A stretch of DNA of 64,000 nt from Chryseobacterium tagetis (lineage in GTDB: Bacteria > Bacteroidota > Bacteroidia > Flavobacteriales > Weeksellaceae): the NCBI RefSeq assembly GCF_016735585.2, contig NZ_JAERSE020000005.1:248001-312000 (forward strand), written 5' to 3'. Below, in pieces: positions 28,001-49,641 of the stretch. Numbering within the stretch: position 1 is the first letter of the stretch; every line of letters begins with the position of its first letter. The notes under the pieces are model-generated. The model did not search any database and was not told where the DNA came from. It was given only the letters and a program-made list of their open reading frames with translations. The position numbers and the translations under genes were made by a program.

Positions 28001-28025
28001 ATTGCAATTTAAAATAAATTATGTT

Positions 28026-28499
28026 ATGACACTAGAACAAATCAAAGAAATTCTTCCAACATTAGACAATGTGGAATTTGAGCTTGAAAACGGACAATTT
28101 GTACCGGAACATTTTCATGTAACCGAAATCGGAATGGTTACGAAAAACTTCATGGATTGTGGCGGAACGATGAGAAAAGAGGAAAAGGTAAACTTTCAGC
28201 TTTGGAATGCAGATGATTACGAACATCGTTTAAAGCCGGGTAAACTTCTTCATATTATTAATTTATCTGAAGAAAAACTAGGGATTGGAAATTTTGAAAT
28301 AGAAGTGGAATATCAGGACACAACAATTGGAAAGTACGATCTTGAATTCAACGGAAAGAATTTTGTGTTAAAAAATAAACTGACGGCCTGTCTTGCCCAA
28401 GATGCATGTGGAATTCCTCCTCAAAAGCAAAAAATGAATTTGAGTGATCTGTCCGGAAATAAGCAGAATTTCTGTTCGCCTGATTCTGGGTGCTGCTAA
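28026..28499 (+). CDS. DUF6428 family protein of the arsenic operon
   Basis: A 157-residue soluble protein matching the DUF6428 pattern: VEFELENGQFVPEHFHVTEIGMVTKNFMDCGG and LWNADDYEHRLKPGKLLHII. The C terminus is Cys-rich (CLAQDACG, FCSPDSGCC), as expected for a thiol-metalloid contact. I start at ATG 28026; the TTG at 28002 overlaps the operator. It sits between arsR and the arsenate-reductase-like gene, so a role in arsenic handling is likely, but no biochemical activity is known to me. Confidence 0.82.
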   Translation: MTLEQIKEILPTLDNVEFELENGQFVPEHFHVTEIGMVTKNFMDCGGTMRKEEKVNFQLWNADDYEHRLKPGKLLHIINLSEEKLGIGNFEIEVEYQDTTIGKYDLEFNGKNFVLKNKLTACLAQDACGIPPQKQKMNLSDLSGNKQNFCSPDSGCC

Positions 28500-28525
28500 T
28501 ATTAACTTTTATTTGAGATTAAAAA

Positions 28526-29137
28526 ATGAATGATAAGTTATCAATATATATAGAAGAAGTTCTTTCTCAAAATATTAACGAGGACAGGAAGAGTATTTTG
28601 CAGCCATTGATAGATTTTATACAACAGAAAGTAAAAGATCAAAAATCAATAGATATTAATTTTATATGTACCCATAATTCTCGAAGGAGTCACTTTGCAC
28701 AAATATGGGCTCAAACAGCATCGGCTTATTTTAAAATTTCAAATGTGAATTGTTATTCTGGAGGTACAGAAGCAATAGCTTTGTTTCCAAAAATAGCAGA
28801 GACATTATTTGATTCTGGTTTTAATATTTGGAAATTAAATGAAAATGAGAATCCTGTATATGTTATAAAATATGCTGAAAATGCTGTGCCGATTATTGGG
28901 TTTTCAAAAACATATGACGATCCTTTTAATCCAAAGAATAGTTTTGCTGCTATTATGACTTGTTCACAGGCGGATGGAGATTGCCCTTTTATTGCAGGTG
29001 CAGAAAAACGAATTCCAATAACATTTGAAGATCCGAAAATTTCTGACGGCACATCTGAGCAGACAAAAGTATATAATGAAAGAAGCCTGCAGATTGCTGC
29101 AGAAATGTTTTATGTTTTTTCGAATATCAATAAATAA
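28526..29137 (+). CDS. LMW-PTP-like arsenate reductase
   Basis: A 203-residue protein with the low-molecular-weight phosphatase P-loop C48-THNSR-R54 (Cx5R) and a C146-SQADGD-C153 pair. A nucleophilic cysteine plus a downstream pair seven residues apart is the layout of thioredoxin-coupled arsenate reductases, where the three cysteines relay a disulfide. It should reduce arsenate to arsenite for export by the next gene. It carries about 40 extra N-terminal residues before the P-loop. Phosphatase activity cannot be excluded. Confidence 0.85.
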
Positions 29138-29138
29138 A

Positions 29139-30176
29139 ATGAATCCTCAATTAAAATTTCTTGATAGATATTTAACCCTATGGATTTTTCTGGCGATGAT
29201 TGTCGGGGTAAGCTTAGGCTATTTTTTTCCTGGCATATCAATAAGGGTAAATTCATTTTCTTCGGGTACAACCAATATACCACTGGCAATAGGATTAATA
29301 CTGATGATGTATCCTCCATTAGCAAAAGTAGATTATGCATTGCTTCCACAAATTTTCAAAGATAAAAAAGTGATATCCATATCATTGCTGCTCAACTGGA
29401 TTATTGGACCGGTCTTAATGTTTATTTTGGCTGTTATCTTTCTCAGAAATGATCCTGAATTTATGATTGGTCTTATTCTGATCGGCTTGGCAAGATGCAT
29501 TGCTATGGTAATAGTTTGGAATGATTTAGCAAAAGGAAATAGAGAATATGCAGCCTTGCTTATCGCTCTCAACAGTATTTTTCAGATTGTATCATACAGT
29601 TTTCTGGTGTGGTTATTTATTGATGTTCTCCCTCAAAAATTAGGATTGGGAAATTTTAGTGTTTCTGTACCCATCAGAGAGGTGACAGAAAGTGTTTTAA
29701 TTTATTTGGGAATCCCTTTTCTGGCCGGGTTTTTAAGTAGATATTTTTTAATAAAATCAAAAGGAAAAGAATGGTACAACCGAAAATTTATCCCCATAAT
29801 TTCTCCGGTTACTTTATATGCTTTATTATTTACTATTGTCTTAATGTTTAGCCTAAAAGGCGATAAAATTTTGGAATTGCCTATGGATGTTATAAAAATT
29901 GCCATTCCGCTGGTCATTTATTTCATATTGATGTTTTTTCTTAGTTTTTTTATAAATAAATTAATGAAAGTTCCCTATGATAAAAATGCGTCGATTGCTT
30001 TTACAGCAACCGGAAATAATTTTGAATTGGCAATTGCTGTAAGTATTGCAGTATTTGGAATTCATTCATCACAGGCATTCGTTGGAGTGATTGGTCCTTT
30101 AGTAGAAGTTCCGGTATTAATTTTATTAGTTAAAGCCAGTTTATTTCTTAAAAAGACGTATAAATTGACAAATTAA
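29139..30176 (+). CDS. acr3: ACR3-family arsenite efflux transporter
   Basis: A 345-residue, about ten-helix member of the bile/arsenite/riboflavin transporter superfamily. The conserved cysteine of helix 4 (C120 in [11 protein letters not shown]) and glutamate of helix 9 (E296 in [10 protein letters not shown]) essential in ACR3 proteins are both present. It exports arsenite using the proton gradient. The longer open frame from 29025 overlaps the reductase gene; ATG 29139, one base after the previous stop, gives the family N terminus ([17 protein letters not shown]). Confidence 0.93.
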
Positions 30177-32149: not shown

Positions 32150-35100
32150 ATGAAACGAAAACAACTTTTTAGGCAAACATTATTGTTGTTGCTGTTTGTG
32201 GTCTCCCAAATTATGTGGGGACAATGTATTAATGAAACCTTTGCAACTGCAGGGACAAAGCCAACAGGATGGGCTGGTACAGGTAGTGTTAACACTTCAA
32301 GTGATCCTGCACACGCTGCTGGAGGTTCAGGATATTGCTGGAATTTGGGATCAGGTCAAACTGCAATTACCCCAGCGGTAGATTATCCTCAATCTATTAG
32401 TTTTTATTTAGATGCCTCGGGTTCTGGTGGTCAAACAGTAACTTTAGCATATAGCATTAATGGAGGAAGCTATGTAAACCTTACCCCTACATTCTCTGCA
32501 ACGACTGCCGGAGCGACTGTTGGGATAGCCGATTTGCCAGCTGCTGTAAAAACAGCTACAGCTGTTAAAATCCGTTTTACATCTGGATCTAATACTGCTT
32601 ATGTAGATAATGTAGTTGTAACTTGTGGTACTTCTACGCCTACTCAAGCAACTACACCAACAATTACGTTAGCAGGTACTTCTGTAGGAACAGATACGTA
32701 CGCAAATACAGCAACGGTTACTTTGGTTTCTGCAGGAAGTGATGCTATATATTATACGACAGATGGTAGTGATCCTACAATATCGTCTACTCCTTACTCA
32801 GCTCCTTTTACGATAACGACTATTGGTGCAACTACCATAAAAGCTATAGCTACGGTTGCAGGGTTAACGAATAGTACCGTTGCAACTAAAGCAATTACGA
32901 TAGTATCTCAAATTCCACCAGTAAATGATTTATGCTCGAATGCACAAGTATTGATGGCGGGAGCTACGGCAAATGGAACTTTGCTTTATTCTACCTATGC
33001 GGCTCCAGTGAGTGCGGGAAATTCAGGAAAAGATGTTTGGTATCAATATACAGCTACTGTAAGTGGATCTCATACTTTTACCGTTCAAGGGTTTAAAATA
33101 GCACCTAATGATACATCTGCTGATGTAGATTTGCAATTGTTTGGAGGTTCTTGTCCTACATCTTCTACCTATTTGGTAAATTCTACAACAAGTAGTAATA
33201 TTGAGACAATTACAACAAATTTAACGGCTGGAACTACTTATTATCTAAGAGTTTTTGCATACAATACAAATGCTGAAGCGTCTACTTTCACAGTAGGTTT
33301 AACGGCTCCAGCGCCACCAACACCTCCTGTAATTACTAATGAAGGGGCGTTACCCAATGCAACCGTAGGAACTGCGATTGCAACATTTAATGTAATATCT
33401 TCAGGATCTGCAGCTACGTATTCGTCTGCTAATTTACCATCTGGTTTATCTATAAGTTCTGCTGGTGCAATTACAGGGACTCCAACTGTTTCAGGTACGA
33501 ATATTCCATTCACTGTAACAGCGACAAACAGTGAGGGTTCTGATGATGGAAATTATACAATTACAATTGCACAAGGTGTACAAACTTCTGCTAATAATAC
33601 GTCTTACAACTTAGTATCCGGGGCTGCGAATACAACTTTAAGTGCGACTACCAATGCAGGAAAAACTATAACTTATGTAAGTAACAACAATAATGTAATA
33701 GATATACAAAATGGTAACGAAATTCATGTGGTTGGAATAGGAAGTACAACTATTACGGCATCTGCTTCTGGTGATGCTAATTGGAATGCTTACAATGCAA
33801 CTATAAACGTTGAAGTAATATCTGCAGTAGTTTACCAAAAAATTAATTCTCTTACAGATTTAACAGACGGAGAGTATGTGATTGCAGATGCTAACGATGA
33901 AGTTGCTGCAAGTAATGTAATTACAAATGGTGCTTTAGTTACTAATGCTATTACTCCTACGTCTGGACAAATTATAAATCCGGCAGCAAATACGGTTTGG
34001 AATTTGGTGAAAACAGGAAACGTATTTACAATTCAAAGTGTTGCAAGTTCTAAATTTGTAAATTTTATAAGCTCAACAAATTTATCTGTTGTTGATGCAG
34101 TAGCAAATAATAACCAAAAATGGGATATTACTTACACTTCAGGATCTAATGCTCACTTTACAATAGCAAGTGCAGCGGATGCAAGTAGAATTTTTAAATA
34201 TAATTCTGGTTTGACAGCGCCTGGATTTAAAGCATATACTACCTCAACTCAATCACCGGAAGTTAGTCTTTATAAAAAAGTATCAGCTGCTGTTACAACT
34301 TGGAACGGAACAGGTTGGAACAATGGAGTGCCTACATCTTCTACAGATGCAATCATTGCAGGTTTATATTCTACAACTATACAGCCGAATCTTACAGGAA
34401 ATACTATTACAATCAATAATGGAGGAGTATTGGAAGTTACTAGTGGTAAAACTGTAACAGCAACAAATGTAATTGTAAATGACGGAGGAAACTTCATTCA
34501 AAGAGATGGCTCTACTTTAACTAATACAGGAGCTTTCAATGTATTGAAAAATACTACGAGTGCTGCTAATAAATATGTATTCTGGGCATCGCCAATGGTT
34601 TCTCAAAATATTTTTGGTATTTATACAACTACACCACAGTATGTGATGGCTTATGATAGTGCAACAGATTACTATACGACTTTAAGCAATCCTGCAACTT
34701 CTATTCCTGGGGTAGGATATTCAGTAAAAATGCCTGCAGCAAATGCAATTGCTACTTTCGGAGGAGCTTCCGCGCAGCCAAACAATGGAAATGTAGTAGT
34801 CGCATTAAACAATACTTCTACAAACAAATATAACTTAATTGGTAACCCATATTCATCTAATGTAGATTTGAACGCATTTTATAATGCTAACTCATCTTCT
34901 GTAGGTTCTACATTTTGGTTCTGGGATAATACAAGTAATAGTGTAACTACGCAATCAGGAAATACGACAACCAATGTTGGGTATGCTACATACAATGCAG
35001 CTGGTTCTGGTACTTGGATAGAAGCGCCGACTTCTTTAGCGTCACATTCAGGAAATTCAGCAACAATAGGACAAGGTTTCATTGTTGAAGCAACAGGAAC

Positions 35101-35818
35101 GGCAGCAACATTTACCAATGCAATGAGAATTTCTACTACAGGAAATACCTTTAACAAATTAAATGGTAATGATACAGGTAAATTTTGGTTGAAGTTGGCA
35201 ACACCATATGGAAGTAATACCACATTAGCTGTTAACTATGAAGTGGGAGCACAAAATACATTTGATGCTTTCGATTCAAGATCAATGGGAATGGGGTCAG
35301 ATGCTTTCTATAGTACAGTGGGTACTGAAAAATTAGTAATTCAAGGTAGATCACCGTTTACGGTTGATGATGTTGTACCATTAGGAAATAAGCATTTTGA
35401 AGCAGGTAACTTTGTAATTTCATTAACTCAAAAAGAAGGTGTTTTCAATAACGGACAGGCAATTTATCTTCATGATAAAAACTTAGGTACTTATACGAAT
35501 CTTCAGACTGGAAGCTATAGTTTCTCAGCTAATGCAGAAGAGTTTACCAATAGATTCGAAATTGTTTACAAATTGAATGTTTTAGGAACTCAGGAAATTG
35601 AAAAAACAACTTTTGAAGTATATAGAGACGGAGAAGGCTTTGTTGCGATAAATTCTAAAAACATTGAAAAACTAGAAATATATGATGCTTCGGGGAGAAA
35701 AGTAATGGAATTAAAACCAAATGCTGATTCCGTTAAATTTAAATTACAAACAAAAGGAATGTATATTTTAAGAGCAATATCAGCTGGTAAAGAGTATACA
35801 AAAAAACTAGTTAAATAA
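32150..35818 (+). CDS. Large multidomain T9SS cargo protein with type A sorting domain
   Basis: A 1222-residue exported protein. Signal peptide at 1-25 (MKRKQLFRQTLLLLLFVVSQ); jelly-roll-like segment at about 26-160; a chitobiase C-terminal-like fold at about 165-245 (IYYTTDGSDPTISSTPY); a pre-peptidase-like beta-sandwich at about 258-385 (DVWYQYTATVSGSHTFTV); putative Ig-like domains at about 393-474 (LPSGLSISSAGAITGTP) and 482-558; a lectin-like segment at about 560-710; and the C-terminal sorting domain ending GMYILRAISAGKEYTKKLVK. It has no recognised catalytic domain, so binding or surface structure is likely. The next gene starts 7 bases on. Confidence 0.9.
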   Translation: MKRKQLFRQTLLLLLFVVSQIMWGQCINETFATAGTKPTGWAGTGSVNTSSDPAHAAGGSGYCWNLGSGQTAITPAVDYPQSISFYLDASGSGGQTVTLAYSINGGSYVNLTPTFSATTAGATVGIADLPAAVKTATAVKIRFTSGSNTAYVDNVVVTCGTSTPTQATTPTITLAGTSVGTDTYANTATVTLVSAGSDAIYYTTDGSDPTISSTPYSAPFTITTIGATTIKAIATVAGLTNSTVATKAITIVSQIPPVNDLCSNAQVLMAGATANGTLLYSTYAAPVSAGNSGKDVWYQYTATVSGSHTFTVQGFKIAPNDTSADVDLQLFGGSCPTSSTYLVNSTTSSNIETITTNLTAGTTYYLRVFAYNTNAEASTFTVGLTAPAPPTPPVITNEGALPNATVGTAIATFNVISSGSAATYSSANLPSGLSISSAGAITGTPTVSGTNIPFTVTATNSEGSDDGNYTITIAQGVQTSANNTSYNLVSGAANTTLSATTNAGKTITYVSNNNNVIDIQNGNEIHVVGIGSTTITASASGDANWNAYNATINVEVISAVVYQKINSLTDLTDGEYVIADANDEVAASNVITNGALVTNAITPTSGQIINPAANTVWNLVKTGNVFTIQSVASSKFVNFISSTNLSVVDAVANNNQKWDITYTSGSNAHFTIASAADASRIFKYNSGLTAPGFKAYTTSTQSPEVSLYKKVSAAVTTWNGTGWNNGVPTSSTDAIIAGLYSTTIQPNLTGNTITINNGGVLEVTSGKTVTATNVIVNDGGNFIQRDGSTLTNTGAFNVLKNTTSAANKYVFWASPMVSQNIFGIYTTTPQYVMAYDSATDYYTTLSNPATSIPGVGYSVKMPAANAIATFGGASAQPNNGNVVVALNNTSTNKYNLIGNPYSSNVDLNAFYNANSSSVGSTFWFWDNTSNSVTTQSGNTTTNVGYATYNAAGSGTWIEAPTSLASHSGNSATIGQGFIVEATGTAATFTNAMRISTTGNTFNKLNGNDTGKFWLKLATPYGSNTTLAVNYEVGAQNTFDAFDSRSMGMGSDAFYSTVGTEKLVIQGRSPFTVDDVVPLGNKHFEAGNFVISLTQKEGVFNNGQAIYLHDKNLGTYTNLQTGSYSFSANAEEFTNRFEIVYKLNVLGTQEIEKTTFEVYRDGEGFVAINSKNIEKLEIYDASGRKVMELKPNADSVKFKLQTKGMYILRAISAGKEYTKKLVK

Positions 35819-35825
35819 GAAAAAG

Positions 35826-36062
35826 ATGAAAAAGATAATAGTTATAGGTTCAATAGTTTTTTCTGGTCTTGCTTTTGCACAACACTCAGATAATCCTTAT
35901 ATATATGATGAGCCATCACAAACATCAGAAGTAGAAAAAAGTCCAGGTGAACCTGGGGATCCTTCTACACCAATAGATGAGCAAATTCCATTTTTGATAG
36001 CTGCAGCTATAGGGATGATGCTTGTTTTTTCCAAACGCAAAAAAGCAAGCAATTCTTTTTAA
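35826..36062 (+). CDS. Small exported protein with PID-CTERM-like sorting signal
   Basis: A 78-residue protein: signal peptide MKKIIVIGSIVFSGLAFAQ, a Pro/Gly/Asp-rich middle (SPGEPGDPSTP), then PIDEQIPFLIAAAIG..., a hydrophobic helix and a basic tail KRKKASNSF. That tripartite tail (PID, helix, Lys/Arg) matches the PID-CTERM class of flavobacterial sorting signals, thought to be handled by an exosortase-like transpeptidase. Only about 25 residues would remain after both ends are processed. Located directly after a T9SS cargo gene and before the polysaccharide locus. Confidence 0.8.
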   Translation: MKKIIVIGSIVFSGLAFAQHSDNPYIYDEPSQTSEVEKSPGEPGDPSTPIDEQIPFLIAAAIGMMLVFSKRKKASNSF

Positions 36063-36074
36063 AGAAATATATTT

Positions 36075-36108
36075 AAAAACCGAAGTTTATTAACTTCGGT
36101 TTTTTTTA
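36075..36108 (+). terminator. Terminator after the PID-CTERM gene
   Basis: Arms AAAAACCGAAGTT / AACTTCGGTTTTT with a four-base loop and eight T. The spacer that follows (36109-36335) is AT-rich and holds an 8-base direct repeat GTGATAAG (36139, 36275) and a TATATTTG -7 element at 36298-36305, but no gene. Confidence 0.9.
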
Positions 36109-36335: not shown

Positions 36336-38294
36336 ATGAAAAAGCTACTTCATGCTTTTAGTGTACTGTACGATGGGGACAACATATTGAAAATTACGAA
36401 ATTAAGATATGTCCCTCGTTGGTTAGTTATTATTATAGATGTTCTTATTGTACTGTTTTCTATAGTGCTTTCTTCTCTGTTTTTAGAGAAATTACATGTA
36501 AGAGATAGTTTTCCGGAATATACATTTCAAAAAATAAGTTTGGTCATTATAATTAATGTCCTGTTTATGTTTGTATTTAAAACATATGCAGGGATTATAA
36601 GGCATTCAACTTTTTTTGATTTCTTTAAAATCATGTTTTCTTCGGGAAGTACTTTAATGACTCTTCTAGTTATTAATTATTGTACAGAAATATTTTTTGG
36701 AAGAACTCCATATCTTTATCCTAATCTGTTTCTATACTTTTTCATATCTGTTTCTGCAATGTTCTTTTTCAGAATGATTACAAAACAGTTCTTCAATATG
36801 CTGATCGATTATAAAGGATTTTCATATAAGGTTAAAGTGGCAGTAGTGGGAGTAGGAGATGCGTCCGTTTCAGTTGCAAGAGCGATCATGCATAATCCCA
36901 GTTATCCATATCGGTTATATGGTTTCTTGACAAAAAGATCGGACTCTAACCGTGCAATGTTATTAGGACATAAAATATACAATCAGGAGTACTTTTTTAA
37001 AAACGAAAACCTAATCAGAAAGTTTGATGCAGTATTGATCATTAAGGAGATCATGACAAAGCAAGAGCTTGAGGAATGGATGACTCTGGCTCTAGATAAT
37101 GGTTTAAAAGTGTTGAAAGCTCCTTCATTGAGTAAAATGCGAGACTCTGATTTAGTAGGAGGAATACGTCAGCTTCAGATTGAAGATTTGCTGAATCGTA
37201 GACCTATTAAAATAGAAAATGAAGAAGTTAAGAAAAGGCATTTTAATAAAAATGTTTTAGTAACAGGTGGGGCTGGTTCTATCGGAAGTGAAATTGTAAG
37301 ACAGGTTGCTCAGTTCAATCCTTCTCTGATTGTGGTACTGGATCAGGCTGAATCTCCTTTGTATGAATTGGAGTTGGAGTTGGTGGAAAAATTTCCGGAG
37401 CAGAACTTTAAATTTATACTGGCAGATATTTCAAATAGATATAGACTTGAAAAAATATTTGAAGAGCATCAGTTTTCAATGGTATACCACGCTGCGGCGT
37501 ACAAACACGTACCCTTGATAGAAGATAACCCTCATGAAGCAATTTTTGTGAATGTTTTAGGAACTAAAAATGTAGCATTGCTTTCAAAAGAATACAAAGT
37601 CAACCGTTTTGTAATGGTTTCTACAGATAAGGCTGTAAACCCTACAAATGTTATGGGAGCATCAAAAAGAACAGCCGAACTTTTTGTACAATCTCTACAG
37701 AATTCGGAAGGTAACGTTACTAAATTCATAACTACACGTTTTGGAAATGTTTTAGGATCAAACGGTTCAGTAATTCCTCATTTTAAAAAACAGATTGAAA
37801 AAGGAGGTCCGATTACGATTACTCACCCGGATATTATCCGTTACTTTATGACAATCCCTGAAGCATGTGAATTGGTATTACAGGCAGGAACTATGGGGAA
37901 TGGAGGAGAAATCTATGTATTCGATATGGGTGAGCCTGTAAAGATTTTAGATTTGGCTAAAAGAATGATAAAATTATCAGGTTATACCCCGGATTTAGAT
38001 ATTAAAATCAGTTTTATAGGATTGAGACCAGGAGAAAAATTGTATGAAGAATTGTTGAGTGACAATGCAACAACAGTCCCTACCCATCATGAGAAAATTA
38101 TGATTTCCAAAGATTTGACAATAGAGTTTGAAGAAATTAATATATTATGCATACAGATCATTAAATCGGCAGTTAAAAGAGATAGATTAGAGGTTGTAAG
38201 GATACTAAAGACTATTGTACCTGAATTTATTAGTAATAATTCAGAATTTGAAATTTTAGATCATAAAACTAAAGAATTTGATGTGATTCAATAA
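36336..38294 (+). CDS. CapD/WbpM-like nucleotide-sugar 4,6-dehydratase
   Basis: A 652-residue membrane-bound polysaccharide biosynthesis enzyme. About four N-terminal membrane helices (residues 30-150) precede a CoA-binding-like domain and a C-terminal SDR domain with VTGGAGSIGSEI (NAD site), AAAYKHVPLIEDNP, and MGASKR, where the usual SDR Tyr is replaced by Met as in FlaA1/WbpM proteins. It should make a UDP-4-keto-6-deoxy-HexNAc from UDP-GlcNAc, precursor of sugars such as QuiNAc or FucNAc. It opens the polysaccharide locus. Confidence 0.92.
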   Translation: MKKLLHAFSVLYDGDNILKITKLRYVPRWLVIIIDVLIVLFSIVLSSLFLEKLHVRDSFPEYTFQKISLVIIINVLFMFVFKTYAGIIRHSTFFDFFKIMFSSGSTLMTLLVINYCTEIFFGRTPYLYPNLFLYFFISVSAMFFFRMITKQFFNMLIDYKGFSYKVKVAVVGVGDASVSVARAIMHNPSYPYRLYGFLTKRSDSNRAMLLGHKIYNQEYFFKNENLIRKFDAVLIIKEIMTKQELEEWMTLALDNGLKVLKAPSLSKMRDSDLVGGIRQLQIEDLLNRRPIKIENEEVKKRHFNKNVLVTGGAGSIGSEIVRQVAQFNPSLIVVLDQAESPLYELELELVEKFPEQNFKFILADISNRYRLEKIFEEHQFSMVYHAAAYKHVPLIEDNPHEAIFVNVLGTKNVALLSKEYKVNRFVMVSTDKAVNPTNVMGASKRTAELFVQSLQNSEGNVTKFITTRFGNVLGSNGSVIPHFKKQIEKGGPITITHPDIIRYFMTIPEACELVLQAGTMGNGGEIYVFDMGEPVKILDLAKRMIKLSGYTPDLDIKISFIGLRPGEKLYEELLSDNATTVPTHHEKIMISKDLTIEFEEINILCIQIIKSAVKRDRLEVVRILKTIVPEFISNNSEFEILDHKTKEFDVIQ

Positions 38295-38447: not shown

Positions 38448-39065
38448 GTGAAAAATAAGAGCATAAAAGTTTTTAATGTTATTTTGAGCGGTGGAGTAGG
38501 AAGCAGGTTGTGGCCCCTATCTCGAAAACAAAATCCTAAACAGTTTTTAAAACTTTTCTCTGGAAAATCTCTATTTGAATTAACAGCAGAAAGAAATATA
38601 GGATTAGTTGATGAGCTTATAGTTGTTGGAAACCATGATCATATTGAATGGAGTAGAAATATATTTCGGGATAGGAATATCCCGAACAATTTATTACAGA
38701 AAGAGTGGCAAGAAATACTGCTGTGACAATTGCTTTTGTGATACATGCAGATTTTGTTAAGAATACCTTCTATAAATATTGACTAGGCTATGATGGAGCC
38801 TTCAAAGAAAATTAAAGTGATTCTTGCTTATTTTATGTGGAATGATTTAGGGGCTTTTGAATAGTTATATGACTACCTCAGATCTAATGGACATCCTGTG
38901 GATGAAAATGGAAATATGGTAATAGGTACAGATATTTTCACAGCCTTTGGAGGAATGAAAAACTGTATTTTTGTATTTACTTCTGATGCAGTACTGATTT
39001 TGCAAAAAGAAAAATATAAGGATGTGAAAAAAGTATATGCAAAGTGGGAAAATAAAAATAAATAA
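38448..39065 (+). pseudogene. Degenerate mannose-1-phosphate guanylyltransferase copy
   Basis: The first 85 or so codons ([35 protein letters not shown]) are nearly the same as the intact gene at 44321. Around 38690 the frame shifts ([10 protein letters not shown] continues in another frame), about 120-150 codons are then missing, and the C-terminal part resumes at about 38795 (KKIKV...WNDLGAFE) with an internal TAG at 38862-38864 before YDYLRSNGHPVDENGNMVIGT. It cannot encode an active enzyme. It is a relic of duplication or cassette exchange with the copy 5.9 kb downstream. Confidence 0.88.
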
Positions 39066-44320: not shown

Positions 44321-45313
44321 ATGAAAATATATAACGTAATTTTATCAGGTGGTGTTGGAAGCAGGCTTTGGCCTCTTTCTCGTAAACAACACCCGAAGCA
44401 GTTTCTTAAATTGTTTTCAGGAAAGTCATTATTTGAATTAACTGCTGAACGTAATCAGAAAATTGTAGATCAGATTATGGTTGTTGGAAATACAGATCAT
44501 ATTGAATGGAGTAAGCAGCTTCTTAATGATATTTCTTTGCCTAAGAAATTTATTACCGAAACTGCGGCTAGAAATACAGCTGCTGCCATTGCATTTGCTG
44601 CACTAGCTGTTGATCCTGATGATATATTAATTATTACCCCATCTGATCATTTAATTCAGAATCAGGATGCTTATGAAAAGGCAATAAAAGAAGCTGTTGA
44701 ACTGGCAAAAAAAGACTTTTTGGTAACTTTTGGAGTCGTTCCTTCAAAACCAGAAACAGGGTATGGGTATATAGAATATGAAGGAAAGGATGTACTTTCT
44801 TTCAGAGAAAAACCGAATACAGAAACTGCACAAGAGTTTTTGGAAAGAGGAACTTTTCTTTGGAATTCTGGAATGTTTTGTTTTAAAGCTGGGATACTTT
44901 TAGAGGAACTAAAAAAATATCAGCCTGAAGTATTTGATAAATGTAGTGAAACTTGGAAAACTTCTGAAAACCAATGTTTAGATGTAGATGCTTCACTTCA
45001 GATTCCCTCCATTAGTATTGATTATGCAGTAATGGAGAGATCTAAGAAAATAAAAGTAGTTCCAGCTCACTTCAGGTGGAATGATTTGGGATCTTTCGAA
45101 TCATTATATGACTATTTACGTTCTACAGGACATCCTATAGATGAAAACGGAAATATGGTAATTGGAACAGAAATATTCACGGCTTTTGTTGGGCTCAAAG
45201 ATTCTATTTTAGTATACACTTCCGATGCCTTATTGATTCTTCATAAAGAAAAATCGCAGGATGTAAAAAAAGTGTATAACCAACTTGAGAAATATAAATC
45301 TACATTAAGATAG
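44321..45313 (+). CDS. manC: Mannose-1-phosphate guanylyltransferase
   Basis: A 330-residue nucleotidyltransferase that makes GDP-mannose from mannose-1-phosphate and GTP. Motifs are [20 protein letters not shown] (nucleotide binding), ITPSDHLI, FREKPN and the domain WNDLGSFESLYDYL. It lacks the C-terminal isomerase cupin, which is encoded by the gene just upstream. A degenerate paralogue lies at 38448-39065. The 130-base spacer that follows is very AT-rich and marks the boundary to the CDP-sugar cassette. Confidence 0.92.
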   Translation: MKIYNVILSGGVGSRLWPLSRKQHPKQFLKLFSGKSLFELTAERNQKIVDQIMVVGNTDHIEWSKQLLNDISLPKKFITETAARNTAAAIAFAALAVDPDDILIITPSDHLIQNQDAYEKAIKEAVELAKKDFLVTFGVVPSKPETGYGYIEYEGKDVLSFREKPNTETAQEFLERGTFLWNSGMFCFKAGILLEELKKYQPEVFDKCSETWKTSENQCLDVDASLQIPSISIDYAVMERSKKIKVVPAHFRWNDLGSFESLYDYLRSTGHPIDENGNMVIGTEIFTAFVGLKDSILVYTSDALLILHKEKSQDVKKVYNQLEKYKSTLR

Positions 45314-46489: not shown

Positions 46490-47266
46490 ATGAAAGTAGT
46501 TATTTTAGCAGGTGGCCTAGGAACCCGATTGATGGAAGAAACTGAGGCGAGGCCTAAACCAATGGTAGAGATTGGAGGAAAGCCAATATTATGGCATATT
46601 ATGAAAATATATGAAACCTATGGTTACAATGATTTTGTATTATGTCTAGGGTACAAAGCGCAATCAATCAAAGAATATTTTTTGAATTACTATCTTTATA
46701 ATTCTGATGTCACTATTGAATTAGAAAAAAATAAAGTAGATGTACACTTTTCAAATTCTGAATCGTTTAAAGTAACTCTTGTTGATACCGGATTACACAC
46801 CAACACGGCAGGTAGAATTAAAAAAATTCAAAAATATTTAAACGATGAAACTTTTATGCTTACTTATGGTGATGGCGTATCAGATGTTAATATTAGTGAA
46901 TTGGTTAAATTTCATCAAAGTCATGGGAAGCTTGCAACGCTTACGAGTATCCAGACTCCTGGGAGGTTTGGAAATATCGAAATGGATGAACGGGGAAATG
47001 TTGAATATTTTGTTGAAAAGCCACAAGGCGATGGTATGTGGATAAATGGAGGTTTCTTTGTTCTTGAGCCAGGAGTTTTTAAATATCTTGAAGGTGATAT
47101 GGATGATATTCAATGGGAGAAAAAGCCTTTGATAGATATTGCTAATGATGGTGAACTATCTGCTTATAAACATAATGGATTTTGGAAACCTATGGATGCA
47201 TTGAGAGATAGAATAGAATTGGAACAGCTTTGGAGTTCGGGTGAAGCAAAATGGAAAATTTGGTAA
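46490..47266 (+). CDS. rfbF: Glucose-1-phosphate cytidylyltransferase
   Basis: A 258-residue nucleotidyltransferase forming CDP-glucose from CTP and glucose-1-phosphate. It has the N-terminal ILAGGLGTRLMEETEARPKPMVEIGGKPILWHIMKIY signature typical of RfbF/AscA/DdhA, then LCLGYKAQSIKEYF, TYGDGVSDV, and FWKPMDALRDRIELEQLW at the end. First enzyme of the 3,6-dideoxyhexose route; the next gene begins one base after its stop codon. Confidence 0.95.
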   Translation: MKVVILAGGLGTRLMEETEARPKPMVEIGGKPILWHIMKIYETYGYNDFVLCLGYKAQSIKEYFLNYYLYNSDVTIELEKNKVDVHFSNSESFKVTLVDTGLHTNTAGRIKKIQKYLNDETFMLTYGDGVSDVNISELVKFHQSHGKLATLTSIQTPGRFGNIEMDERGNVEYFVEKPQGDGMWINGGFFVLEPGVFKYLEGDMDDIQWEKKPLIDIANDGELSAYKHNGFWKPMDALRDRIELEQLWSSGEAKWKIW

Positions 47267-47267
47267 T

Positions 47268-48350
47268 ATGTTTGAAGATTTAAAACAAATATATAGCGGT
47301 AAAAAAGTTTTTTTAACGGGTCACACTGGATTTAAGGGTGCATGGATGCTGAAAACTCTTTCTCTTTTAGGGGCAGAAGTAAAGGGCTATGCATTGGAAC
47401 CCCTTACAGAAAATGATTTATTTTATCTTATTGACGGTCAGTCGCTATGTGAATCAGTAATTGCAGACTTAAGAGACAGGGATAAATTAAAAAAGGAGCT
47501 TTGTGAGTTTGAACCAGATTTTGTATTTCACTTAGCGGCACAACCATTAGTACGCTTGTCATATGAAATTCCCTCTGAAACTTTTGAAGTTAATGCTATT
47601 GGTACTGCTAACCTACTTGATGCAATAAGATTAATTAATAAACAATGTTCTGTTGTTTTAATTACAACAGATAAAGTATACCACAATTATGAATGGCTTT
47701 ATCCCTACCGTGAAAATGATAGGTTAGGAGGATACGACCCATATAGTGCAAGTAAGGCATGTACCGAGTTGGTTATCGATTCTTACCGTAATTCTTTCTT
47801 TAATACTAAAGATTTCAAGAATCATAAAAAAGGGATTGCAGTCGGACGCGCAGGTAATGTTATTGGTGGTGGTGACTGGTCTAAAGACAGACTCATTCCA
47901 GATATTGCAAGAGCATTATCTCAGGATGAAGAAATAATTATCAGAAATCCTTTTTCCGTACGTCCATGGCAGCATGTTTTAGAGCCAATAACCGGATATC
48001 TTATGTTAGGGTCTTATTTACATTCCGAGCCTGTAAGATATTCTCAAGCATATAATTTCGGTCCGGTTGCAGAAGATGCATTATCCGTTGAACAGATGCT
48101 AAAACTGGCAATTGAATCTTGGGGCTCTGGTAAATATAAAGTAGTAAGCGAAACCAATCAGCCTCATGAAGCTGGCTTACTTAAACTTGATGTAAGTAAA
48201 GCTGCTTTTGAACTAAAATGGTTTCCTAAAATGAAAGCAAAAGATACAGTGGATTTTACTATAGCATGGTACAGGCAATTTAAAAATGAGCCTTCAACAA
48301 TTAATAATTTTACTAAAGAGCAGATAATTAATTTTTTGCAAAAAAAATAA
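47268..48350 (+). CDS. rfbG: CDP-glucose 4,6-dehydratase
   Basis: A 360-residue extended SDR that converts CDP-glucose to CDP-4-keto-6-deoxyglucose. The NAD site is VFLTGHTGFKGAW, the active site is TTDKVY with YDPYSASKACTE (Tyr-x3-Lys), and the family block VRPWQHVLEPITGYL is present. I start at ATG 47268, directly after the rfbF stop, instead of the in-frame ATG at 47241 inside rfbF. Confidence 0.95.
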   Translation: MFEDLKQIYSGKKVFLTGHTGFKGAWMLKTLSLLGAEVKGYALEPLTENDLFYLIDGQSLCESVIADLRDRDKLKKELCEFEPDFVFHLAAQPLVRLSYEIPSETFEVNAIGTANLLDAIRLINKQCSVVLITTDKVYHNYEWLYPYRENDRLGGYDPYSASKACTELVIDSYRNSFFNTKDFKNHKKGIAVGRAGNVIGGGDWSKDRLIPDIARALSQDEEIIIRNPFSVRPWQHVLEPITGYLMLGSYLHSEPVRYSQAYNFGPVAEDALSVEQMLKLAIESWGSGKYKVVSETNQPHEAGLLKLDVSKAAFELKWFPKMKAKDTVDFTIAWYRQFKNEPSTINNFTKEQIINFLQKK

Positions 48351-48375
48351 ATAAACAAAGACTAATTAAAAACAA

Positions 48376-49641
48376 ATGAATTTGGATTTCAACTTAAAAA
48401 CATTTACACCTCCTGTTGCTGGGAAAGATTATATTCCGGTTACTGGTAAAATTATTGAACAAGACGACTTATTGCTATGTATGGAATCTGTCGCAGATGG
48501 ATGGTTGACTGCGGGTAGGTTTGCTAATGAATTTGAATCTGAATTTGCAAAATATTTTGGAGCAACAAAAGCATTATTGGTAAACTCTGGTTCATCCGCA
48601 AACTTGGTAGCTTTTTATGCTCTGACATCTCCAAAACTAGGAGATAGAGCAATTAAACCTGGTGATGAAGTAATAACTGTAGCTGCGGGATTTCCTACAA
48701 CTGTCAACCCAATAGTTCAGTTTGGAGCAGTGCCTGTATTTATAGATGTTGATGTGGCAACCCATAATGTGAAGCCTGAAATGATAGAAGCGGCAATCAG
48801 TTCTAAAACTAAAGCGATCATGATTGCACATTCACTTGGTAATCCGTTTGATTTGGATGAAGTGATGAGAGTTGCAAAGAAATATAATTTATGGGTTATT
48901 GAAGATGACTGTGATTCTTTGGGAGCTACATATAATGGTAAAAAAACGGGTACATTCGGTGATATATCAACATTTTCTTTTTATCCTGCTCATCATATAA
49001 CAATGGGAGAGGGTGGTGCTGTATTAATAAATAACCCTGTACTTTCAAAAATTGCCGAAAGCTTTAGAGATTGGGGGAGAGATTGCTATTGTGAACCGGG
49101 TAAAGATGATACTTGTGGATGCCGATTTCAGCAGGAATTAGGTTCACTTCCTTACGGATATGATCACAAATATACTTATTCTCACATAGGTTTTAATTTA
49201 AAAGTTACTGATATGCAGGCTGCACTTGGAGTTTCTCAATTGAGGAAAGTGGATCGCTTCGTTGAAAAGAGAAGACAAAATTTTACTGCTTTATACGAAA
49301 GGATGAAAGAGTTTGAAGAAATTTTCATATTACCACAACCAACACTTAATTCGGAGCCTTCATGGTTTGGTTTTCTGATGACGTTACGTGACGGAGATGC
49401 AGCAGACAGACATATGCTTGTACAGCATCTCGAAAAAAATAAAATAGGAACAAGATTATTGTTTGCGGGTAATCTGCTTAGACAGCCAGCTTATGCAGGG
49501 GTTAATCACAGAGTTGTTGGTGACCTTACTAATACTGATATAATTATGAATCAATCTTTTTGGCTAGGGGTTTGGCCAGGACTTGATGAAAGTCACTATG
49601 ATTATATAGCAAATGTAATAAGAGATTACATTAACAGCTAA
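48376..49641 (+). CDS. rfbH: CDP-6-deoxy-D-xylo-4-hexulose-3-dehydrase (E1, RfbH)
   Basis: A 421-residue PMP-dependent, iron-sulfur enzyme that removes the C3 hydroxyl of CDP-4-keto-6-deoxyglucose. Two diagnostic features are both present. The Schiff-base lysine of the aminotransferase family is replaced by histidine (H206-H207 in [11 protein letters not shown]). And the [2Fe-2S] ligands occur with the exact E1 spacing C-X57-C-X1-C-X7-C (C179, C237, C239, C247). It works with the E3 reductase at 45444. Confidence 0.97.

Follow-up and report, generated by a model that had tools for sequence, protein, structure and literature searches.

A PID-tailed mini-protein encoded behind a T9SS cargo in Chryseobacterium tagetis is a candidate substrate of the exosortase XrtF

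A 64,000-nucleotide stretch of DNA from Chryseobacterium tagetis, which we call the window, encodes a 78-residue mini-protein directly behind the gene of a large T9SS cargo. With confidence a little above even, we explain it as a Sec-exported mini-protein whose PID-type exosortase tail makes it a substrate of XrtF and whose role is to partner that one cargo. We infer from the sequence that the mini-protein would be processed, would come to lie at the surface and would be produced jointly with the cargo. C-terminal sorting tails of the PID-CTERM type, served by an exosortase, are a kind already known; the T9SS-cargo/PID cassette and the XrtF substrate candidates are new as far as the literature searched shows, and in that literature (titles and abstract openings, with subscription papers mostly outside the coverage) we found no account of the cargo/mini pairing. 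xrtF and the gene next to it are important in Flavobacterium johnsoniae for colonising sand and for biofilm, according to a 2024 paper whose accessible part leaves the substrates of XrtF to future work (PMC10936215). The mini-proteins provide concrete candidates for such substrates, of a size that mass spectrometry can handle directly. That they are paired with cargos links two sorting systems mostly considered separately, and allows a test of whether a dedicated exosortase-tagged partner is required by some T9SS cargos.

The mini-protein, a predicted XrtF substrate, is encoded on the + strand at 35826..36062, with its ATG at 35826 and its stop at 36060-36062; the product starts MKKIIVIGSIVFSGLAFAQ... 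and its tail is PIDEQIPFLIAAAIGMMLVFSKRKKASNSF. Residues 1-18 (35826..35879, + strand) read as a Sec signal peptide, predicted to be cut before Gln19 at a Q-rule site. Q19 is invariant in 29 of 29 aligned minis, as are M1, K2, S13, P40, P43, P49, D51 and L57; across a wider set, Q stands at the predicted cut in 90 of 128 minis, a count biased by the rule's own preference for Q. In the alignment, an acidic mature segment of 30 residues follows (residues 19-48; 35880..35969, + strand), containing DNPYIYDE and PGEPGDP, and is predicted to be the displayed peptide. The PID-type C-terminal tail (residues 49-78; 35970..36059, + strand) consists of PIDEQ, a hydrophobic helix at about 35985-36032 and the basic end KRKK at 36033-36044. 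The structural model (mean pLDDT 68.6) has a helix at residues 2-18, a middle without secondary structure and a helix at 50-75, and thus predicts no further membrane helix between the signal peptide and the tail. The signal peptide, PID, hydrophobic helix and KRKK described in an earlier, sequence-only reading are confirmed. That reading had also called the middle variable, which does not hold: in comparison with three close relatives, 3, 4 and 6 of the middle's 29 residues differ and 8, 6 and 11 of the tail's 30, and a DNPYVYD-like stretch of the middle is widely shared in the family alignment. The ORF is a genuine gene under selection, since its dN/dS against three close relatives is 0.25-0.32 and, of 148 genomes in the genus, 31 contain a match at E<=1e-3, that of C. 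tagetis among them.

Upstream lies the gene of a 1222-residue T9SS type A cargo (32150..35818, + strand), a modular adhesin-like beta protein according to TIGR04183, Pfam and a fold match. Its stop codon occupies 35816-35818 and the mini-protein starts 7 nt further on, in agreement with the spacing noted earlier. The C-terminus is a TIGR04183 T9SS type A sorting domain (32.5 bits, cut-off 23), and CHB_HEX_C_1, Fn3_assoc and GBD_T9SS_assoc exceed their Pfam cut-offs. A model of the last 495 residues (mean pLDDT 82.5, pTM 0.58) matches the C-terminal domain of RgpB (best E 9e-5); a further match is 8gl8_D, which is chain D in a complex of the T9SS translocon (E 2.8e-3, TMt 0.76, 2.0 Å). Because an inverted repeat of 13 pairs, ending in a T run, comes directly after the mini-protein (36075..36104, listed on the - strand and assigned to the + strand from the T run, seen by eye), cargo and mini look like a two-gene unit and probably share one transcript; terminator-like sites in the region number 3 against 2.5 expected in shuffles. 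As the earlier reading had it, a polysaccharide locus adjoins the mini-protein, and its first gene (36336..38294, + strand) encodes a PF02719 polysaccharide biosynthesis enzyme (401 bits). At 46490-49641 of the window, matches to RfbF, RfbG and RfbH exceed the respective cut-offs, marking a CDP-dideoxyhexose-type pathway within this locus. By sight, a 92-aa ORF at 38448-38726 looks like a truncated copy of the beginning of the mannose-1-phosphate guanylyltransferase encoded at 44321-45313. At 28002-30176, arsenate reductase-like and Acr3-type arsenite transporter-like genes were likewise noted by sight only.

The supposed recurrence of T9SS-cargo/PID pairs is borne out, both among relatives and by another such pair that C. 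tagetis itself carries. At 30 of 30 loci read, a mini-protein of 64-82 aa lies 1-89 nt behind an open frame that is 469 aa long or longer. From loci drawn from best-hit lists, not from exhaustive sampling, a script picked 129 distinct mini candidates, 118 found via mini or tail and 11 via cargo only; the script was loose, letting in one evident artefact (L088) and missing some minis, among them L139, L141, L142 and L145. Looking up to 400 nt upstream revealed a gene for 123 of the 129 candidates and none for the other six (L056, L088, L129, L137, L140, L147). TIGR04183 matches 119 of these 123 upstream gene ends at E<=0.01, PF18962 matches 117, and the gap is 20 nt or less in 100; the upstream gene of one genome (G307, family f2) is outside the pairing counts. 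Searching from the cargo side gave 37 loci, with a mini next to the cargo in 31 of the 36 complete ones (30 by script and L184, with tail PIGMY, by reading), a count that leans to mini-bearing cargos because the query alignment A3 came from mini-bearing loci. The remainder comprise one cargo running off a contig end, one decayed-looking mini (L180) and four cargos without a mini. In other families, the minis of three f6 genomes sit directly behind large ORFs, two of which have TIGR04183 tails, and the mini of G296 (f4) sits behind a TIGR04183 cargo. Two observations concern the arrangement of these modules. In C. balustinum, the stretch behind the cargo at L180 5490-5620 resembles a decayed mini signal peptide and holds no intact ORF. 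Some Chryseobacterium contigs carry a pair of oppositely oriented cargo/mini modules separated by about 20 kb (L170/L191, L171/L172, L175/L199), arranged as if flanking a locus.

The tail-only profile A2 has two matches in the C. tagetis genome at E<=0.1, the window mini-protein and C3:20170-20274. The second mini (L065:5168-5389), whose middle is rich in Pro and Gly and quite unlike that of the first, follows a 657-aa T9SS type A cargo (24.9 bits, cut-off 23) at a distance of 2 nt, the pair standing between clpX and a thioredoxin-like gene. In the 4.4 Mb genome, T9SS type A tails number 80 (E<=1e-5); because these mark a small minority of its genes, chance is unlikely to have placed both of its PID minis immediately after a T9SS cargo.

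Over 81 tails the signature reads PIDxY-x3-L-x3-[AG]: position +4 is Y in 67 of them, position +8 is L in 80, and position +12 is either A or G in all 81. The window mini-protein has Q at the Y position. Because P-[ILV]-[DNE] served as the selection filter, evidence of conservation is limited to the other tail positions, and these, together with the alignment of 29, uphold the claim that the PID tail is conserved in homologues. Some paired minis have an altered motif (PIG, ANMY, DIDMY, STDMY), and the minis behind the second cargo in XrtF-positive genomes poorly reached by A2 have ANMY, DIDMY, PIDLY, STDMY or TPINF; because of these alterations behind the second cargo, the core of the tail may be D-x-Y followed by the helix and the basic end. 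The window protein has the PID-CTERM layout of a C-terminal P-I-D, a hydrophobic helix and a basic end, and the PID_CTERM model NF046080 (cut-off 26 bits) does not report it at E<=10. Because it falls below the cut-off, we file it as a divergent PID-CTERM relative, not as an NF046080 member, and NF046080 was set aside as its direct classifier. Three f6 minis do exceed that cut-off (29.7, 32.3 and 44 bits), and 7 of 65 tails match at E<=1. Two NF046080 matches in the C. tagetis genome, in proteins of 112 and 589 aa, were dropped, both being read as membrane proteins. PEP-CTERM (TIGR02595) gives no match to the window protein, which has PID where Pro-Glu-Pro is expected. LPXTG anchor and PEF-CTERM were rejected on sub-threshold matches, and the NCBIfam and Pfam scans returned sub-threshold families only.

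The exosortase to be expected elsewhere in the genome is present. A single XrtF match (TIGR04128; C3:312633-313142, 216.7 bits, cut-off 90) is followed by the TIGR04127 partner protein (150 bits), on a contig other than that of the window cassette. Cys, Asn-x-x-Arg and a His are readable in the XrtF sequence, and the EpsH-type His-x-x-x-Gly spacing is not seen; the accessible part of the EpsH paper gives the catalytic residues as Cys, Asn-x-x-Arg and His-x-x-x-Gly (PMC1569441). Within the family of C. tagetis (f1, which we infer to be Weeksellaceae), 168 of 178 genomes have XrtF. Co-occurrence was counted with A2; the full-length profile A1 matched 80 of 80 genomes at E<=1, many via signal peptides, and was not used. 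Run on 73 family genomes (63 XrtF-positive, 10 XrtF-negative), A2 matched 53 of 63 versus 0 of 10 at E<=1e-3 (Fisher p 3e-7, relatedness ignored), two of the 63 (G000, G064) having contributed tails to A2 and the 53 matches being partly read. Every weak match in the XrtF-negative family genomes, up to E 0.1, starts at A2 column 10 or later, past the PID. Among the ten XrtF-positive genomes short of 1e-3, reading, which left out G160, G162, G217 and G235, found a mini behind a cargo in four (G174, G205, G222, G210), while G204 and G214 have no mini at the clpX site and no A2 match at E<=1e-3.

Outside the family, 66 genomes of the order were searched, 27 with XrtF (G303 under the cut-off) and 39 without. 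A PID-type tail is present in 11 of the 27 XrtF-positive genomes (ten read; G294 accepted on an E-value of 7.5e-9, its match cut by a contig end) versus 0 of the 39 XrtF-negative ones, many of which are very small and little informative. Thirteen XrtF-negative genomes match at E<=0.1, all from column 10 or later, and in 16 of the 27 XrtF-positive genomes, where weak matches were partly read, a PID tail was not confirmed. Putative minis in the XrtF-negative genomes G151, G193 (80 aa) and G300 (65-aa frame) were rejected, as no PID tail was found on reading. The second cargo (E<=1e-20) follows the same pattern, occurring in 10 of 19 XrtF-positive versus 0 of 13 XrtF-negative genomes. At the clpX site, the cassette is missing in seven of seven XrtF-negative genomes read (G285, G151, G193, G186, G220, G164, G185; the count leaves out G201, G165 and G212), and clpX there stands directly beside the thioredoxin-like gene; the XrtF-positive G176 has an equally empty site and a first-type mini elsewhere. 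The exosortase reading proposed earlier is partly supported. Its two refuting conditions, a genome lacking any exosortase and homologues in which the PID tail is not kept, were checked and did not refute it. Tail and XrtF share a phylogenetic profile, though not strictly, as G204, G214 and the 16 of 27 genomes without a confirmed tail show.

XrtF can be told apart from T9SS in the XrtF-negative genomes that keep T9SS tails, three in the family (G285, of the same genus, with 67; G151 with 44; G193 with 45) and three elsewhere in the order (G338 with 75, G354 with 8, G357 with 9); a PID tail was found in none of the six. With only the three T9SS-keeping family negatives, Fisher p is 0.006, relatedness being ignored. 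These genomes weigh against a rather unlikely alternative, in which the mini-protein is an unprocessed bitopic adaptor that stays in the inner membrane and chaperones its own cargo to the T9SS translocon, its co-occurrence with XrtF being secondary. Such an adaptor would fit the tight coupling of the minis to T9SS cargo genes, the variation of the tail motif in some minis, and a flexible acidic segment in which, for 56 of 128 minis, an N-x-[FYW] motif occurs no more than 22 residues from the predicted cut (shuffles average 9.2 and reach at most 16; many of the minis are close relatives and not independent). It fits poorly with a tail laid out like sorting tails, with f6 homologues that exceed the PID_CTERM cut-off, and with only 2 PID tails found in the C. 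tagetis genome beside its 80 T9SS tails.

A shade less probable again is that the mini-protein is indeed an XrtF substrate whose link to the cargo is one of co-expression only, the peptide decorating exopolysaccharide or the surface without touching the cargo. PEP-CTERM systems are linked to exopolysaccharide, according to the accessible part of PMC1569441, and a polysaccharide neighbour, judged by sight, is frequent at loci of the window mini type (19 of 30), though not constant. The polysaccharide link was rejected as a rule on the clpX-site pair of the same genome, near which no polysaccharide gene was noticed within the 10.5 kb read; attachment of the peptide to the polysaccharide, put forward as a possibility in the earlier reading, is not supported. 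In favour of the co-expression reading, none of the five f3 minis read has a T9SS cargo upstream. Against it, each of several cargo families has a mini type of its own and a different site, and the cassette, where absent, is absent as a whole. Two of the f3 loci (L138 and, by sight, L147) have a standalone PID mini adjoining a methylmalonyl-CoA-epimerase-like gene, with no T9SS cargo.

Quite improbable, in our judgement, is shared loss without an enzymatic link, in which XrtF, the minis and some T9SS cargos form one surface programme and the tail is dealt with by some other enzyme. Of the ten XrtF-negative family genomes, seven (G164, G185, G165, G186, G201, G212, G220) have no T9SS type A tail, and in this family XrtF seems to be lost when T9SS is lost; because their T9SS type A tails are absent too, these seven cannot separate XrtF from T9SS, and the losses that appear independent are few. 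Yet the C. tagetis genome has no second XrtF-like protein at E<=1e-3, although the model reaches weaker relatives in other genomes (G350, G303), and what is missing from G285, from G151/G193 and from three f3 genomes points in one direction. To a chance ORF or annotation artefact we give virtually no credence: the small size might suggest one, as might the NCBIfam and Pfam scans, in which no curated family exceeded its cut-off, but conservation, a dN/dS in the range given above and a fixed position have already refuted it.

Taken together, these results lead us back to the XrtF-substrate reading with a cargo partner, for which we envision the following steps. Signal peptidase would expose Gln19, and the C-terminal helix would retain the mini-protein in the inner membrane. 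XrtF would then cut near PID and pass an acidic peptide of roughly 30 residues to an acceptor, either a glycan or a lipid; by the Q-rule, the released peptide would probably begin with pyroglutamate, as pyroGlu-HSDNPYIYDEPSQTSEV... In PEP-CTERM/EpsH systems, as described in the accessible part of PMC1569441, a periplasmic motif, a helix and a cytoplasmic basic end hold the protein until the exosortase cuts, and it is by analogy with this logic that cutting of the mini-protein by XrtF is proposed. The tagged peptide would arrive at the surface and serve its own cargo, exported separately via T9SS, in docking, anchoring or assembly; because each mini travels with its own cargo, a dedicated cargo partner is the simplest function. 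The frequent N-x-[FYW] motif near the predicted cut suggests a putative binding site, although many of the minis that carry it are close relatives. We also consider, as possible rather than likely, a bolder version in which T9SS and XrtF are two arms of one surface-display pathway and the mini peptide, linked to a glycolipid or sugar, forms a private, cargo-specific lock-and-key. If so, the PID minis would be the missing XrtF substrates, the peptide would be the address or anchor for its own cargo, and the acceptor might be akin to the sugar by which T9SS cargos are linked.

Among known systems, PID-CTERM (NF046080) also comprises short secreted proteins with PI[DN], a hydrophobic helix and basic residues, and of the three f6 minis over its cut-off, two lie behind T9SS type A cargos; it differs in that the signature here is PIDxY-x3-L-x3-[AG], whereas the f6 form is PIDG..LLAAG-like. 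The XrtF/TIGR04127 pair of F. johnsoniae (Fjoh_1448/1449) has its equivalent in this genome, with the difference that the PID minis provide substrate candidates here and none is tied to F. johnsoniae itself. With the T9SS type A CTD and PorU sortase system, the common element is the paired cargo, which bears a T9SS type A CTD; T9SS cargos carry a C-terminal sugar modification, according to the accessible part of PMC7468200. The mini-protein, in contrast, is without a T9SS CTD, and because its tail is a membrane helix its route must differ from T9SS. PEP-CTERM/EpsH (XrtA) shares the motif, helix and basic end, an exosortase in the genome and a link to a polysaccharide locus, as far as the accessible part of PMC1569441 goes; what sets the present system apart is PID as the motif, minis without a predicted folded domain, the pairing with T9SS cargos and the finding of two tails in this genome.
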